Positions 4,968 through 11,861 of a stretch of 64,000 bases of DNA are shown here, piece after piece. The DNA lies in assembly GCA_029775855.1 (NCBI GenBank), contig JARVJZ010000004.1:130901-194900 (forward strand). Reading direction: 5' to 3'. The notes beneath the pieces were generated by a model that saw only the letters and a program-made list of their open reading frames with translations, made no database searches and was not told the origin of the DNA. The position numbers and the translations under genes are program-made. Each line of letters starts with the position of its first letter. Within the stretch, counting starts at the first letter, position 1. This DNA comes from Nitrososphaeria archaeon (GTDB lineage Archaea > Thermoproteota > Nitrososphaeria > Nitrososphaerales > JAAOZN01).

Positions 4968-6788
4968 ATGTGCATCAATTTGAGCGTCAAGCATCTTTTA
5001 TCAAGGAGGCAGACTCTTGCCGTCCTCCTTACAATTGCGATTATTGGAGGGTTACTTTTCATTCCTCAAGCATCCGCCATCAGGGTGGAGATAAGCGGTA
5101 TAACCAGCGGTGAAACTATAACGCTTGGTGTAGTTAAAGAACTTGAGTTTAGGATAGTTGTGGAAAGCGGCGAAGTGGTGCCTGTGCAAGAGATACGTGT
5201 AGTCATAGATGGTGTGCAATACACAGCTCCACCTACTGGTGGTGACCTAACACCAGCAAACAGCATCATACCAACAATCACACTAGTTACACCACCACCA
5301 GGCTACTTCTACTCAGCAAGCTACGGCTACGGATACGGATACCTCTACGGATACGGATATGCATTCGGATATGGATACAGAGCTCTCTACGGCTACGGTT
5401 ACGGATATGGTTTCACATCTGGCAGCCAGATAAGGTATTCAGCATCACTCTACACATCATATCTAAGTTTAGGCAGCCACACAATAAGGGTTGATGTAGC
5501 GACTGGTCTCCAGCCCTCAAACATATTCTCCTCACAGACCATATCGTTCACGTTAGTATCCCCGCCTACACCTACACAACCAGCACCATCAGCACCACCA
5601 ACAGCGTCTGATCTCGAAGCTATGTCTGCTGAGGAGAGGGCTGCACAACTTACACAGATGAATGCATCTGACGCAGCAAATAGAATTGAGCAGATGAGCG
5701 TAGACAAAGCTGTAGAAGCAATAAAGGCGATGAACGCTACAGACGCAGCAAGAATACTTAACCTCGTCAACACAACTAGAGCTGCTCAAATCCTAGCCAG
5801 ATTAACCGTTGAAGAAGCGGTTAGAATTACACTTAACCTCAACGTGGACAAAGCTGCAGACGTCGTTTTAACGATGGATGTAAGAGAAGCCGCGCCGGTA
5901 GTTGAGGGAATGACTAGGGAGAATCTGCATAGGGCTGCTCAAGTAGTAGATAATATGATTGCTAAGGATGCTGCAGGCGCAGCTAGAGTTATAGATGAAC
6001 TACCTCCAGACGTGGCAGCTGATCTACTACTCGAGATAGCTGGGTTGCCCTCAACACCTGAGAAGGCCGCTATGCTCATAGATGCGATGAGCTTAACGAA
6101 GGCTGTTGACGCCGTAAAGTCGATTATAGCATCCAACAAGATGCAGACACTCGCACAGATACTCAGCCACGTATCAACAAGCAGACTCAACGAAATATTC
6201 AAGCAGCTCTCATCTAGTGAGAGGCTCAGAACCCTACCATATCTCGACGCAGCGACACAAGCTAGGTTGAAACACGTAAAGGCGACCTTGACAGTAGAAA
6301 GGGTGGATGCACAGCCGGGCAGCTCAGTCAAAGTTAGGTTGGCCCTATCATCTACTCAACCCATACCTGAAGGCTCTGTATCATTCAGCATCCCAGCCGC
6401 TTTCAAGACAAAAGCTCTATCTGTTGAAGGGCTACCTGGAACATCTGCAAGAGAGGCTACTAGGCTCATAGTCACTAAGTTGGCTACTCAACCATCATAC
6501 GCAGCTGCTTCAGTCGCATTCGACTTGGTTGTGCCACTTAACGCCAGCGTCTCGGTTGGGCAGATTGTCACGGTAGTTGCGTCGGTGAACGTGCCAGACT
6601 TTGCTGTAAGCTTTGACACACCAACAGCGGTAAGTGTGACTGTGGTTAAACCTACGGTGCAGAGCATATTCAGCGCCTTAAACTCCTACTTCGATAAGAC
6701 AGTAAGCGTATACACTGAGGGAAGAGTGCCTGTGAAGCAAGACATATACAGCTTACTGGACTTCTACTTCAGAGGGAGAGTGGATTAA
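4968..6788 (+). CDS. Secreted surface protein with Tyr/Gly-rich segment, helical repeats and cohesin-like end
   Basis: 606 residues. A signal peptide (about residues 1-37, ending PQASA) is followed by a beta domain, then a striking segment at roughly 117-150 made of YGYGYGY-type units. After a Pro/Thr linker, residues about 210-440 are tandem short helical pairs of the type SAEERAAQLTQMNASDAANR, resembling the MgtE N-terminal superhelix. A C-terminal beta domain (about 445-560) looks cohesin-like, and the last 40 residues (LNSYFDKT...DIYSLLDFYF) recall dockerin-like helices. No membrane anchor is visible, so it may bind the anchored product of the next gene, which starts 2 bases after this stop. 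Probably exported and part of the envelope; exact role unknown. Confidence 0.85.
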   Translation: MCINLSVKHLLSRRQTLAVLLTIAIIGGLLFIPQASAIRVEISGITSGETITLGVVKELEFRIVVESGEVVPVQEIRVVIDGVQYTAPPTGGDLTPANSIIPTITLVTPPPGYFYSASYGYGYGYLYGYGYAFGYGYRALYGYGYGYGFTSGSQIRYSASLYTSYLSLGSHTIRVDVATGLQPSNIFSSQTISFTLVSPPTPTQPAPSAPPTASDLEAMSAEERAAQLTQMNASDAANRIEQMSVDKAVEAIKAMNATDAARILNLVNTTRAAQILARLTVEEAVRITLNLNVDKAADVVLTMDVREAAPVVEGMTRENLHRAAQVVDNMIAKDAAGAARVIDELPPDVAADLLLEIAGLPSTPEKAAMLIDAMSLTKAVDAVKSIIASNKMQTLAQILSHVSTSRLNEIFKQLSSSERLRTLPYLDAATQARLKHVKATLTVERVDAQPGSSVKVRLALSSTQPIPEGSVSFSIPAAFKTKALSVEGLPGTSAREATRLIVTKLATQPSYAAASVAFDLVVPLNASVSVGQIVTVVASVNVPDFAVSFDTPTAVSVTVVKPTVQSIFSALNSYFDKTVSVYTEGRVPVKQDIYSLLDFYFRGRVD

Positions 6789-6789
6789 G

Positions 6790-7716
6790 ATGAATAAGTT
6801 ATGCTTTAATAACTTGACTTCATATGGATGTGCGGGTAAAGCCTTGAAGATATACACCTATACAGCTTTAGCGATTCTTATACTTGCCTCAGTATTGACA
6901 TTCCTACCTAACGTATATTCAGCGCAAGCAACAGCTGCCTTCAATCTCTCAGATGGTTTGATTAAGGTTGAAGTCACAAGCCCGGTAGAAGTCTATCAAT
7001 TTCAACTCTCAATAACTCTACCTAGTGGTGCAACCATCAATGCTGCGCAAGCATCTACCACGGGCTTCATGGAGAATGCGGTCTTCCTGCAGGTGGGCAA
7101 TGAATATAGGTGGTTCAATCTTGACGCAAAACCATCGAAGGTAGGCTCATTAACCGTGCCAGCTTCTGGAGTAGGTGTAGACAACTTACCTCAGCTGCAG
7201 CTAGTAAGATTGGATCTGCTGGACGCGGGTGGAAATAAGATAGATCTTCAGCAGACATTACCGCTAAAGGCTACACTGGCACCGATTACAGTGACAACTA
7301 CGGTTAGGGAGACTATAACCACGACAACAACCGTAACCCAGACAACAACGCGCACAACCACAGTAACACAGCCTACAACAACCACACTCACATCAACCAT
7401 AACGCAGCCGACCACAATTACAACTACCTCTACAGTCACACAACCAACCACAGTCACAATAACGGTTACTTCAACAACAACTCAGCCAACAACAGTTACC
7501 GCGACATCTACAACTACAGCAACCGAAGTCAAAACCACAACTCAGACAACTACATCAACATCCACATACACAATAACTAGAACAGAGCTAGCAACTACAA
7601 CGGCCTACAAAGAGATAACCGTAGACACAACACCATACATAGCAGGCATCGTTATACTGATAATTATAATCATCATCCTAGCGATCCTAATGCTTAGACG
7701 CAAAGCAGCGGTCTAA
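6790..7716 (+). CDS. Membrane-anchored surface protein with cohesin-like domain and Thr-rich stalk
   Basis: 308 residues: an N-terminal hydrophobic export signal (about residues 20-45), a single beta domain (about 48-160) starting AFNLSDGLIKVEV and similar in style to cohesins, a roughly 100-residue stalk dominated by Thr with repeated TVTQPTT units, then a C-terminal membrane helix (about 280-302, rich in Ile) followed by RRK. The architecture is that of archaeal surface proteins anchored by the C-terminus, with a stalk that is a likely O-glycosylation target. It is the second gene of an operon with the preceding secreted protein, so the two may form one surface complex. Confidence 0.85.
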   Translation: MNKLCFNNLTSYGCAGKALKIYTYTALAILILASVLTFLPNVYSAQATAAFNLSDGLIKVEVTSPVEVYQFQLSITLPSGATINAAQASTTGFMENAVFLQVGNEYRWFNLDAKPSKVGSLTVPASGVGVDNLPQLQLVRLDLLDAGGNKIDLQQTLPLKATLAPITVTTTVRETITTTTTVTQTTTRTTTVTQPTTTTLTSTITQPTTITTTSTVTQPTTVTITVTSTTTQPTTVTATSTTTATEVKTTTQTTTSTSTYTITRTELATTTAYKEITVDTTPYIAGIVILIIIIIILAILMLRRKAAV

Positions 7717-7933: not shown

Positions 7934-8068
7934 GCCGCGGTCGCCTAGGCTAAACAAGGGGGAGACGCTAAATGCCCCAGCTCGGTAGGGCGCAGGCCTG
8001 GAGCCTTAGTCCAGCTTGTTAGCCTGTGACCCGCAAGGGTCTCGAGGGTTCAAATCCCTCCCGCGGCG
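7934..8068 (+). tRNA. tRNA-Ser (anticodon GGA) with two introns
   Basis: Acceptor stem GCCGCGG/CCGCGGC, discriminator G, long variable arm GACCC-GCAA-GGGTC and T-arm GAGGG-TTCAAAT-CCCTC identify a serine tRNA. The gene is 135 nt, about 49 too long. Removing about 32 nt (near 7947-7978) restores a perfect D-stem GCCT/GGGC with a nine-base loop. Removing 17 nt (8004-8020) restores the anticodon loop CTGGAGA between stem CAGGC/GCCTG, with anticodon GGA at 8000-8002. The second intron sits at the canonical 37/38 position; the first lies at the D-stem/D-loop edge. Exact boundaries could shift by one or two bases. No CCA is encoded. Confidence 0.88.
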
Positions 8069-8136
8069 CTCTCTATTAAGAAGCTGGTTAATATTAAAGA
8101 TATTTAACGATTTAGGGAACTTTACTACTTATTATA

Positions 8137-8158
8137 GTTAATTAATTAATTAATTAAC
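8137..8158. repeat. (TTAA)5 perfect palindrome upstream of a TATA box
   Basis: Five TTAA units flanked by G and C make a 22-bp perfect palindrome just upstream of the cassette promoter. It could be an operator or a simple microsatellite. Confidence 0.6.
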
Positions 8159-8164
8159 AAAAAA

Positions 8165-8171
8165 TTTATAT
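8165..8171 (+). promoter_or_regulatory. TATA box of the 8.2-9.7 kb cassette
   Basis: TTTATAT lies so that transcription would start at about 8193-8197, essentially at the ATG of the first gene (8197). This predicts a leaderless mRNA for the four-gene cassette. Confidence 0.55.
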
Positions 8172-8196
8172 TTCAGATGCGCTCTTACTCAGTTCT

Positions 8197-8466
8197 ATGA
8201 ATTGGAAGGCGTCGAGTAAAGATTTCCGTGAAGAATTAGAAAGAATCTTCCAAGAAGGCGAGCGTAAAGGCTTACAATATGTAGATGTTATTTCAGGTGA
8301 GCTACATAGGAGAGTAGGTGGGTACCCCGGACGCAATCATAGAATGCCGCTCTGTTGTCACGTTATGCGAAGTATGATGCAAGAAGAAGATGAAGTGCTT
8401 GCTGAGCCGCCTAAAGGTAATGGGGCTACCCTAAAGATAAGGTATAGATTGCCAAGGAGGGTTTGA
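8197..8466 (+). CDS. Small His/Cys-motif protein, first gene of a four-gene cassette
   Basis: 89 residues, no signal or membrane segment. The core is a dense motif, HRRVGGYPGRNHRMPLCCHV (residues about 37-56), which looks like a conserved active or metal-binding site. The C-terminal part (PPKGNGATLKIRYRLPR) is basic. I believe similar short proteins occur in bacteria, but I cannot name the family or function. The next gene starts one base after its stop, so the two are translationally coupled. It directly follows the 3' end of tRNA-Ser, a common site for inserted DNA. Confidence 0.7.
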   Translation: MNWKASSKDFREELERIFQEGERKGLQYVDVISGELHRRVGGYPGRNHRMPLCCHVMRSMMQEEDEVLAEPPKGNGATLKIRYRLPRRV

Positions 8467-8467
8467 A

Positions 8468-8941
8468 GTGAGGATTCTTATAGTCGTACCTTGCGGGAAG
8501 AGTAAGATCTGGGATGTAGACCAGGACAGAGGGCCGACGAGGGCAGAGGAAGCATACACTGGAGGGCCGTTCAAGGTTAATCGGGCGTTTGCAAAGAGAT
8601 TCGCCGATAGATGGGTGATCCTTTCAGCTAAATACGGTTTCATAGACCCGTCTTTCACTATCCTCGAAAATTATAACGTGACATTTAAAGACCCTTCTAC
8701 TAACCCGATAAGTTTAGAACAGCTAAGAAGCCAGGTGGATGAGATGAAGCTGGATGCATACGATGTCGTGATAGCCTTAGGCGGCAGAGATTACACATCA
8801 ATAGTCAAGAGGTGTTTTGGCGATAAAAAGAAGGTGATATGCCCAGCTGAAGGGCTGCCGGTGGGTAAAGCTATGGGGTGCATCAGTAATCTTACAAATC
8901 TCGACAGAGAGGAGATGCTAAGGGAGATAGGTTTGTGTTAA
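8468..8941 (+). CDS. DUF6884-family protein
   Basis: 157 residues with a GTG start one base after the preceding stop. The N-terminal PCGKSKIW motif, the central LSAKYGF and the later VVIALGGRDY are hallmarks I associate with DUF6884, a family with a nucleotide-binding-like alpha/beta fold that often sits in mobile or defence neighbourhoods. Its biochemical function is not established. The stop overlaps the start of the next gene as TAATG, supporting an operon with the GIY-YIG protein. Confidence 0.75.
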   Translation: MRILIVVPCGKSKIWDVDQDRGPTRAEEAYTGGPFKVNRAFAKRFADRWVILSAKYGFIDPSFTILENYNVTFKDPSTNPISLEQLRSQVDEMKLDAYDVVIALGGRDYTSIVKRCFGDKKKVICPAEGLPVGKAMGCISNLTNLDREEMLREIGLC

Positions 8942-9582
8942 TGTGGAGAAATTCTGTGGAAGAAATCTGTAGATGTGTACATGAACTTATCAGCTCACTG
9001 TCAGCGTACTCTAATCCCAGTCAAGTGTCTTTCACCAATGGCCTATACTTCTTTTACGAGAAGGGGGAAGTGTCCATTCATGCACCCAATGGTCGTGTTG
9101 TTAGAGTAGGTAATCACCCATATTCAAGCAATGGTTTAAAAAGGCGCTTGCAGCTCCACTACTCTGGAAACAAGAATAGCAGCGTGTTCCGCAAGTTCCT
9201 TGGAGGAGCTTTAATGCGTAGAGAAAACCCTGCACATCCATGTTTACCTCATTGGGAAAAGCAAGGCCAACCTACCTGCAAAGTATGCAGGAAGGTCGAA
9301 GAAGATGTTTCAAATCTTCTAAGAGCTAACTTCTACTTCCGATGTGTAAAGATCGAGGATAAAGGGACGCGTAATCTTCTTGAGAAAAAGCTGATAGCCA
9401 CAATCTCTTCATGTAAGATATGTAAGCCGTCTGGAAATTGGTTAGGGAGGTACGCATATTCAGATCTTGTTAGAAGTTCTGGTTTATGGAACTCTAATTA
9501 TGTTTATGATGGGGATTGGGTTATGTCAGCAGAAGATTTAAATTTGCTGCGTAATCTGATACAGTTAACGCGTGTAAGGTAA
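8941..9582 (+). CDS. GIY-YIG nuclease-like protein
   Basis: 213 residues from the ATG at 8941. This start is preferred over an in-frame GTG at 8935 because the same TAATG overlap recurs at the next junction. GLYFFYEKGE (about 36-45), VVRVGN (about 58-63) and the Arg in LKRRLQLH correspond to the GIY, YIG and Arg motifs of the GIY-YIG nuclease fold; SGNWLG near 170 could supply the distal Asn. Two Cys pairs (CKVCRK and CKICK) may bind zinc. The catalytic motifs are partly divergent (GLY for GIY, VVRVG for YIG), so nuclease activity is inferred. Confidence 0.72.
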   Translation: MWRNSVEEICRCVHELISSLSAYSNPSQVSFTNGLYFFYEKGEVSIHAPNGRVVRVGNHPYSSNGLKRRLQLHYSGNKNSSVFRKFLGGALMRRENPAHPCLPHWEKQGQPTCKVCRKVEEDVSNLLRANFYFRCVKIEDKGTRNLLEKKLIATISSCKICKPSGNWLGRYAYSDLVRSSGLWNSNYVYDGDWVMSAEDLNLLRNLIQLTRVR

Positions 9583-9734
9583 TGACAGCGCAGAGCCGTA
9601 TTGTTCTTTGCAGCTATTGTAAGAGAAGAAGGGCGGAATATGACATTGGCAGCGAGGTTTATCTATGCAAGGAATGTTACGAGGAGTGGCACTTTAACGC
9701 TTTTCAACAGATGAGTGAATTCAGCTTATTCTAA
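9582..9734 (+). CDS. 50-residue zinc-ribbon protein closing the cassette
   Basis: Read from the sequence: starts with ATG overlapping the previous stop (TAATG) and encodes 50 residues ending SEFSLF. Two CxxC knuckles (CSYC and CKEC), 19 residues apart from first Cys to third, form a treble-clef/zinc-ribbon-like site. The end overlaps the stop of the convergent MFS gene by four bases. Probably an accessory nucleic-acid or protein-binding subunit of the cassette. Confidence 0.65.
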   Translation: MTAQSRIVLCSYCKRRRAEYDIGSEVYLCKECYEEWHFNAFQQMSEFSLF

Positions 9735-10951
9735 CGATACACCGCTCTTTTTGAACGATCAACACCCACTGGAAGCAGAAGTATAACGCTTAAGACCATT
9801 GCCGCTGCTGAAAGTGTAAAGGCTGGGCTATAGCTACCCATAGACTCACGTAGAAAGCCCGCAACAATAGGAGATACTGTAGCACCGATACCGTAAAATA
9901 AGGTCCATAAGCCGATTACTGATCCAGACGACTTCTCCTCAAAATACTCTGAAGCGCAAGCTGCATATATAGGGAACATAGACGCATAAAAGATGCCGTA
10001 CATAATGGCTAAGAGCATCAGTAGATGGAGACTTGCTCCAATAGCAACCATGCTGTAGATTGACACTGCGACACCAAGGTTGCAGAGGGCTAAGCCTTGT
10101 ATTCGACCTATTTTGTCTGATAGATATGGGAGGATTAGACTTGCGGGGATGCCGCTGAAGGCAACGGCGCTAGCCAGTCCTGCCGAATAAGCATAATCTA
10201 TTGAGAGATCTATGTTAAAGTATGCTACCATAAAGGTCATCGTGGTGCTTGTAGCGAAGGCTATAGCAAAGTATGATGAGGCTATGAACCAGAACGTTCC
10301 TGATGATAAGATTATTTGAGTTGCTTCTTGTGTTCTAAATTCTCTTCGTCTATCCGTTGATTCTTTTTCTTTTAGGAGAAGCGCTGAGGCTGCAGCTAGT
10401 GTTAGGGTGAAGACGCCCATTAGATACCATCCATGCTGCCAACCATAGGTGTCTACAATTATTGGCAGCAGTAAACCCATCAAGCCGTATCCAACACCAT
10501 AGCCTGAATTCACTACTCCTATTGCTCTACCTCTCTTCTCAGCTTTAAACCACATAGTAACAAGCCTTATGATTGCAACCCATCCAGCGTGTGAACCAAC
10601 CCCGACGAGCGCGAATAAGAAGACTCCTAGAGACCACTCTTTAACAGAACCCATCATAAATGTGCCGAACCCCATCACCACACAGAGCAGCGGTATAACC
10701 TTCTTGCAGCCAACTCTATCAACCATGAAGCCTATCAGTGGCGCTGATAGCGTATATGAGAGGAAATAGGCGCTTGCTATAAACCCGCTCTGAACATCTG
10801 TCAAATTTAGAGAAGACTTCATCGGCGGTATTAGAATACCGTATCCAAACCTTATGCCATATGATGCGAGCACAAGAAGAAAACCTACACCAAGTATCAC
10901 ATAACCCCAGTAAAAGCGCTTGAGCATCCTCTTGTATGAGAATAGACCCAT
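9731..10951 (-). CDS. MFS transporter, oxalate/formate or monocarboxylate type
   Basis: 406 residues with about 12 membrane helices. The loop motif GFMVDRVGCKK after helix 2 and its counterpart DKIGR in the second half are typical of the major facilitator superfamily. The pattern of an N-terminal YKRMLKRFYWGYVILG and gapped first loop resembles the oxalate:formate antiporter/MCT group. The substrate is probably a small carboxylate but cannot be read from sequence. Confidence 0.85.
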   Translation of the reverse strand: MGLFSYKRMLKRFYWGYVILGVGFLLVLASYGIRFGYGILIPPMKSSLNLTDVQSGFIASAYFLSYTLSAPLIGFMVDRVGCKKVIPLLCVVMGFGTFMMGSVKEWSLGVFLFALVGVGSHAGWVAIIRLVTMWFKAEKRGRAIGVVNSGYGVGYGLMGLLLPIIVDTYGWQHGWYLMGVFTLTLAAASALLLKEKESTDRRREFRTQEATQIILSSGTFWFIASSYFAIAFATSTTMTFMVAYFNIDLSIDYAYSAGLASAVAFSGIPASLILPYLSDKIGRIQGLALCNLGVAVSIYSMVAIGASLHLLMLLAIMYGIFYASMFPIYAACASEYFEEKSSGSVIGLWTLFYGIGATVSPIVAGFLRESMGSYSPAFTLSAAAMVLSVILLLPVGVDRSKRAVYR

Positions 10952-11005
10952 TAGATTAAGTTTCTCTTTTTAATAAAAATATGAAGTGGGTAGGTTTTCT
11001 TTATG

Positions 11006-11779
11006 CTACCTACCCTTAAAGACAGGCTTCCTCTTTTCCAGAAACGCTCTCATAGCCTCCTTTTGATCCTCAGTTGTGAAGAGTGGAAGCTGCTCGAGCT
11101 GCTGGTAAAGTAGCCCATCGTCGATCTGCATCTCTCCACCAACATTGATGGTCATCTTGATGGCGCCGATTGCCTTTGTCGGCCCGTTTGCTAATTGATT
11201 GGCGATTCTAAATGCTTCTTCAAAGAGTTTATCTGCTGGAACGACCCAGTTGACTAATCCAAGCTTCTGAGCTTCCCAAGCTGATATTGGATCTGGGAAG
11301 AAGAGGAGCTGCTTGGCCTTTAATCTGCCAACCCATCTAACTAGAAGCTGGGAGATTCCTGCGCCTGGTGAGATTCCTACGCCTACCTCTGGGTTGGCTA
11401 ATCTTGCGTCATCAGCAGCAACGATGAGGTCAAAGCCGTTCAGCATATCCATTACGCAGAAGCCGTTGACCGCAGCTATAATCGGCTTCCTCAGCCTCAT
11501 CATATATTTGTAGAGCTCTATCATTTTGCCGTTAAACTTGAGCATGAATTCTGGGGTTGCATCTTTGAACTCCTGTAAGTCGCCACCAGCATTAAAGTTC
11601 CTACCAGCAGCTGTGAATAGTATGGCTCTTACACTATCGTCTTCACCGGCTCTGTGCATGGCATCCCAGAGCTCAGAGACCATCTGAGAGTTGACTGCAT
11701 TATTCACCTCAGGTCTATTCAAAGTGATTATAGCAACGCCGCCACGCTGCTCATACTTGATAGTCTTATACTCAGACAT
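11006..11779 (-). CDS. Enoyl-CoA hydratase/isomerase (crotonase) family protein with altered oxyanion loop
   Basis: 257 residues of crotonase fold. The CoA-binding element RNFNAGGDLQEF is present, as is the Glu in NPEVGVG that corresponds to the second catalytic Glu of enoyl-CoA hydratases. The usual NG-x-A-x-GGG-x-E loop, which completes the oxyanion hole and carries the first catalytic Glu, is instead NGFCVMDMLNGFD, about three residues shorter and without the glycines. It is therefore unlikely to be a standard hydratase; a hydrolase or decarboxylase-type crotonase is possible. It stands alone between an MFS gene and a divergent DUF72 gene. Confidence 0.85.
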   Translation of the reverse strand: MSEYKTIKYEQRGGVAIITLNRPEVNNAVNSQMVSELWDAMHRAGEDDSVRAILFTAAGRNFNAGGDLQEFKDATPEFMLKFNGKMIELYKYMMRLRKPIIAAVNGFCVMDMLNGFDLIVAADDARLANPEVGVGISPGAGISQLLVRWVGRLKAKQLLFFPDPISAWEAQKLGLVNWVVPADKLFEEAFRIANQLANGPTKAIGAIKMTINVGGEMQIDDGLLYQQLEQLPLFTTEDQKEAMRAFLEKRKPVFKGR

Positions 11780-11861
11780 AGCGCATCGTTAAGCATTTAT
11801 CAAAAGGGTCTTTTTAGCCTTTCGACTAAAAGGTTAAAGCATCTTATGTCTTTCAAAATCT

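Follow-up and report, generated by a model that had tools for sequence, protein, structure and literature searches.

What do four closely packed genes behind a tRNA gene of a Nitrososphaeria archaeon encode, and do their products work together? The preliminary description of this region proposed a mobile system for defence, DNA modification or stress. We analysed the genes within the window (the whole 64,000-nucleotide stretch of DNA) and their relatives in other archaea, bacteria and viruses. The features are as follows.

7934..8068, plus strand: tRNA gene whose variable arm is long, read by eye as tRNA-Ser(GGA) with two presumed introns.
8069..11861, no strand assigned: variable segment of 3.8 kb with P1-P4, an MFS transporter gene and an enoyl-CoA hydratase gene, between the tRNA gene and a DUF72-like gene.
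8165..8171, plus strand: possible archaeal TATA box (TTTATAT), proposed from a reading of the sequence and general promoter knowledge.
8197..8466, plus strand: P1, 89 aa, winged-helix-like; DUF6884-GIY_YIG-P1 fusions end in a homologous C-terminal domain.
8468..8941, plus strand: P2, 157 aa, DUF6884 (PF21818; PDC-M57A), of the YfjM-like VPCGxxKIWD subtype.
8941..9582, plus strand: P3, 213 aa from the ATG at 8941, GIY-YIG-like nuclease (PDC-M57B).
9582..9734, plus strand: P4, 50 aa, zinc ribbon with two CxxC pairs, TAATG-coupled to P3.

The sequence and the list of open reading frames (ORFs) confirmed the earlier observation of four same-strand ORFs with a 1-base gap and TAATG overlaps, the first of them starting exactly 128 bases after the tRNA gene and the last encoding a 50-residue zinc ribbon. 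The start codon of P2 is a GTG one base past the P1 stop codon, and P2 and P3 overlap in the TAATG at 8939-8943. An in-frame GTG at 8935 is an alternative start of P3, yielding a protein of 215 aa, and P3 residues are numbered here from this codon. The spacing between TTTATAT and the P1 ATG would fit a leaderless transcript. The arrangement is far from chance: overlapping P2 and P3 genes are seen again in both bacteria and archaea.

The second gene had been called a DUF6884 gene by inspection, and P2 indeed scored 57.1 bits against PF21818, for which the Pfam cut-off is 30. It also matched the PADLOC M57A model PDLC04712 (E 2.7e-12). The Pfam team describes DUF6884 as a YaaA-like family that has two motifs, CxxxK and LSAxxG, and a cleft of positive charge, and that is predicted to flip out a base (PMC11701544). 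Both motifs are intact in P2 (VPCGKSK and ILSAKYG), which belongs to the VPCGxxKIWD (YfjM-like) branch of the family. P2 is about 25–32% identical to most usual M57A partners and 40–42% identical to the DUF6884 proteins of two relatives (L083 and L091). The L083 gene, whose product carries an extra small C-terminal domain (DUF7662), adjoins a P3 homologue and a type I restriction cluster, and the L091 copy lies in a restriction-gene island with a P3 homologue.

The GIY-YIG likeness claimed for the third gene is only weakly visible in P3 by itself (GIY_YIG_2, 0.029), and at sequence level it is clearer in the homologues. The Pfam families matched most often by 36 P3 homologues were DUF123, GIY_YIG_2 and GIY-YIG, which we take to be one superfamily of GIY-YIG type. 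All 36 homologues matched the PADLOC M57B model, and P3 matched it (PDLC04713) with an E-value of 7.1e-39. A comparison of the P3 profile with the DUF123 profile of related archaea gave a probability of 45% (E 2e-4), with the VG...R..RH segment aligned. The P3 profile had no match among PDB sequences, and no match was found in annotated phages searched with P3. All 36 sequences have Tyr38 and Arg71, and at least 90% have Glu150; these residues are the presumed active site. The second Tyr, at the YIG position, is replaced in P3 (VRVG), and the Arg and Glu are kept. By sequence relation through weak profiles, and by its Tyr, Arg and Glu residues, P3 is probably a member of the GIY-YIG superfamily.

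The homologues do recur together, which is what the preliminary description had proposed to look for. With a ten-protein P3 alignment as query and one genome per species, 278 P3 relatives were found; 80 of them, from archaea (DPANN among these) and a wide range of bacterial phyla, were kept, and six viral contigs were added. P2 homologues around the P3 loci were then detected with an iterated P2 profile (92 loci). At 64 of the 92 loci (61, and three with larger overlaps) the gene immediately before the GIY-YIG gene encodes a DUF6884 protein, and at 9 the two are fused; in all, they are adjacent or fused at 73 of 92 loci, in bacteria and archaea alike. The genes usually overlap by 3–7 nt, with 3 nt and 7 nt the commonest values. 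Some of the loci with no upstream DUF6884 gene are contig ends, and a few have a different short protein with similar Cys/Lys motifs. At L038, L085, L091, L117 and L124 a short protein family with an HCSAKK motif replaces the typical DUF6884 protein beside the GIY-YIG gene, and this family may be a divergent DUF6884 relative.

PDC systems are putative defence candidates found by guilt-by-embedding, most of which are unvalidated (PMC12988326). Because both models are matched and the genes are adjacent, P2-P3 is assigned to PDC-M57, a candidate system of putative antiviral role. PDC-M57 was not found by name in the literature searched.

P1 had no match among Pfam, NCBIfam, PHROG and PADLOC models or in the annotated phages searched, and weak matches in close archaeal relatives looked spurious when their reading frames were inspected. 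A P1-like C-terminal domain is present on two P3 relatives, one from Acetobacterium bakii (L093) and one from a viral contig (L129). P1 was also found in 10 of 300 Bacillota genomes, one case being spurious. In six of the Bacillota cases P1 ends an intact or nearly intact DUF6884-GIY_YIG-P1 chain of about 460–480 aa, and a seventh such chain is disrupted; one of the Bacillota fusions (L138) is 59% identical to P1. Among 299 Bacillota genomes (centre genome left out), 6 of the 8 with P1 have M57B, in the same protein (Fisher p 1.3e-8, relatedness ignored). The fusions form four diverged groups, about 40% identical to each other, and the architecture is thus not one recent accident. P1 occurred in 3 of 50 tested P2-P3 genomes.

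These data suggest that (i) P1, P2 and P3 are one functional unit, split into three proteins in the window, a reading strongly supported by the overlaps, fusions and co-occurrence; and (ii) P1 is an optional or replaceable subunit, since so few P2-P3 genomes have it. Of the four genes first grouped together, tight functional coupling thus stands for P1, P2 and P3, and membership of P4 is unsupported.

The predicted structure of P1 (pLDDT 85.8) has the order H-E-H-H-E-E (helix-strand-helix-helix-wing). A Foldseek search of this model against PDB and viral structures returned nothing significant; the weak matches include ORC, CodY and FOXA2. The model of a fused protein (pLDDT 91.7, pTM 0.60) has three folded domains joined by flexible linkers. 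Foldseek of the whole fused model found no significant match in the PDB, and so did not confirm the YaaA and GIY-YIG likenesses. The P1 domain also stands at the C-terminus of two nuclease-like proteins (L148 and L166), read by eye as of PD-(D/E)XK type, L166 having no Pfam match. Stand-alone P1 proteins are encoded beside a DUF262/HEC-06-type gene and in a plasmid stretch with Avs1c. Such contexts would fit a shared DNA-docking module.

We rejected P4 as an unproven part of the module: its matches in 29 of 200 genomes were weak, generic zinc ribbons, and no homologue was found at any other P2-P3 locus. A putative lineage-specific accessory is the best explanation of this protein. In two related Bacillota the triple fusion is followed by a protein with a zinc-ribbon N-terminus (L140 840-1412 and L168 7958-8530), which recalls the place of P4 after P3, with no evident sequence similarity.

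The tRNA-Ser gene is the upstream edge of the variable segment. ARAGORN gave only a partial call (7974-8069), as Thr(AGT), and the Rfam search did not detect tRNA-Ser at 7934-8068, because the gene seems to hold two introns, apparently in the D arm and the anticodon loop. The genome of a sister species (G002) has a copy that is 88% identical, at the syntenic place after the same tRNA-Gly gene, and there the tRNA pair is directly followed by the DUF72-like gene, which sits 3.8 kb further on in the window. Synteny comparison found none of P1-P4, the MFS gene and the enoyl-CoA hydratase gene at the G002 locus; this difference may be a gain by the window lineage or a loss in G002. Upstream of the tRNA gene, the window (4968-7716) holds genes for two large proteins predicted to be secreted or at the cell surface, neither of which was found at the G002 locus; the second protein has a C-terminal membrane anchor and a stalk rich in Thr. 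The hydratase gene is present in a same-genus genome (G001), where the contig ends beyond it. The window copy (11006-11779, compared with L186 3-767) is 98% identical to that of G001, against 79–91% for its neighbours, and may have been transferred or exchanged recently. A P3 homologue was found neither in G001 or G002 nor, except for one short weak match, in the sampled order-level relatives.

The marks of a tRNA-integrated mobile element were looked for and not found: the tRNA 3' end is not duplicated in the window, no repeats were detected, and no integrase was recognised among the ORFs of the variable segment. Foreign base composition was rejected, the GC content of the cassette being 43.8% and that of the window 43.7%. 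What survives of the proposed mobility is a variable segment 3' of a tRNA gene that is absent in G002, and the signs of integration are missing.

A minority of the relatives lie among restriction genes: HsdM/S/R genes near L083, L102 and L050, genes for BsaWI- and MvaI-type enzymes near L091, and methylases, a ResIII helicase and a PD-(D/E)XK protein around L167. Some relatives are plasmid-borne. PADLOC models (e.g. type I methylase and specificity subunits, and Mad2) were matched by few of the 133 flanking proteins, so that the association with islands is real but not general. Most loci lie outside defence islands, which counts against a defence explanation. No dedicated defence gene was found around the cassette in the window, where the few PADLOC matches are helicase-like or generic. 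The defence role first suggested is favoured by the PDC-M57 listing and by the minority of relatives among restriction genes, and weakened by the position of this cassette outside a defence island. In an archaeon of the same phylum (L039 5976-8238), PAPS-reductase-type and DndB-like genes closely precede the M57B gene, a possible link to DNA sulfur modification.

What could the products of P1-P3 do? They very probably work together, and most likely would cut DNA that is foreign or abnormal, a virus genome for instance. We give about even chances to the more specific reading in which they are three subunits of one DNA-targeting, restriction-like machine that reads an abnormal or modified base. 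P1, small and winged-helix-like, would dock the complex on DNA; P2, with its presumed YaaA-like fold, would bind DNA and flip out, read or alter an abnormal base (e.g. a phage-modified base or a lesion-like nucleotide); P3 would then cut the strand. Self and non-self would most likely be told apart by the base recognised, in a type IV-like manner, and not by host methylation, because no DNA methyltransferase travels with the module: none is encoded in the cassette, none is a constant neighbour over the loci, and only a minority have one nearby. We infer docking, reading and cutting from the description of DUF6884 and from the CMoRE and Brig precedents (below); a DNA substrate and an antiviral role are presumed likewise. 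The broader proposal is tentative and somewhat harder to uphold: an undescribed class of restriction system, in bacteria and archaea, in which a YaaA-like base-flipper, a GIY-YIG nuclease and a winged-helix docking protein, as separate genes or a single fusion, recognise and cut abnormal-base DNA.

The main rival is a DNA-repair nuclease, in which DUF6884 would recognise a lesion in the cell's own DNA (an abasic site, an embedded ribonucleotide or an oxidised base) and the GIY-YIG protein would incise alongside it, as UvrC does. The DUF6884 protein YfjM has been reported as one of the proteins that bind abasic and RNA-base lesions, and a role in the response to oxidative stress is given for YaaA (PMC11701544). 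Two archaea (L043 and L044) have a gene for a KatG-like catalase-peroxidase as the immediate neighbour of the DUF6884-GIY-YIG pair. Repair genes are usually more evenly retained across genomes, however, and this distribution is very patchy: it covers 7 of 300 genomes of the archaeon's own phylum, and M57B was found in 12 of 300 Bacillota genomes; the sister species lacks the module. The variable segment behind a tRNA gene, and relatives on plasmids and among restriction genes, also speak against repair, which we regard as unlikely.

Base modification is the next alternative: DUF6884 would alter a nucleobase, in the way that DpdC and ArcS act on 7-deazaguanine, and the nuclease would police DNA left unaltered. 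P2 and its relatives have weak DpdC matches, the CxxxK motif could be catalytic, and DUF6884 alone, with no nuclease, occurs in several phages (Halobacterium phage ChaoS9, Fusobacterium phage phiFN37 and others), possibly for counter-defence or base modification. Yet the DpdC matches are near threshold, the cassette has no genes for 7-deazaguanine synthesis, and the nuclease is the only constant partner; we consider this reading quite unlikely.

Two small genes with a tight overlap and a patchy distribution would also suit an RNA- or self-targeting abortive system, or a toxin-antitoxin pair with DUF6884 restraining the nuclease. Fusion of toxin and antitoxin in one chain is unusual, whereas here the halves are fused in many lineages, and the DUF6884 motifs look enzymatic or base-binding, which makes such a system very improbable. 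That only P2 and P3 are linked, with P1 and P4 mere neighbours behind a tRNA gene, would agree with the lack of an associated P4 homologue anywhere searched and of P1 in most P2-P3 genomes, but it is hardly credible given that P1 shares a polypeptide with P2 and P3 in several diverged lineages, a fact that contradicts it for P1 only.

To our knowledge, few defence systems have been characterised in archaea. The restriction-like machine, if its reading of a base is true, would give the DUF6884 family a function and add a pairing of base sensor and nuclease to the archaeal restriction repertoire. The fusions show which domains belong together and give PDC-M57 a third, optional subunit for which the searched libraries have no model; the single chains of about 460 aa are compact versions.

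Compared with known systems, the closest is PDC-M57 itself (PADLOC-DB 2.0.0; M57A and M57B), already known in its two-gene form as an unvalidated candidate: P2 matches M57A and P3 matches M57B, in the typical order and with the typical overlap. The window differs by the addition of P1, for which PADLOC has no model, and of the zinc-ribbon P4, and by a P2 of the VPCGxxKIWD subtype, remote from most usual M57A proteins. The P1 domain and the three-component form appear to be new, as no description of them was found in the literature searched, mostly freely accessible journal articles. As a DUF6884 protein, P2 shares both motifs reported for the YaaA/YfjM group (DUF328, DUF6884); E. coli YaaA and B. 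subtilis YfjM, set apart by description, appear with no nuclease partner in the Pfam paper. The resemblance to DpdC/ArcS consists of marginal matches over the central part of P2, and there are no dpd or queuosine-pathway genes nearby. The phage-defence DNA glycosylases Brig1 and Brig3 would work alike in that a defence protein flips a modified phage base, but by description they have a uracil-glycosylase fold and no nuclease partner, and no homology was seen. CMoRE, a GIY-YIG type IV enzyme of solved structure that restricts modified-cytosine DNA (PMC12923530, which also refers to PD-T4-3), would be similar in its working, in that a base-sensing part is attached to a GIY-YIG nuclease. By description CMoRE is a single chain that has a GIYxY-YIG motif and whose sensing domain is C-terminal, whereas here P3 lacks the second Tyr at the YIG position and the presumed sensor is the DUF6884 protein encoded upstream.
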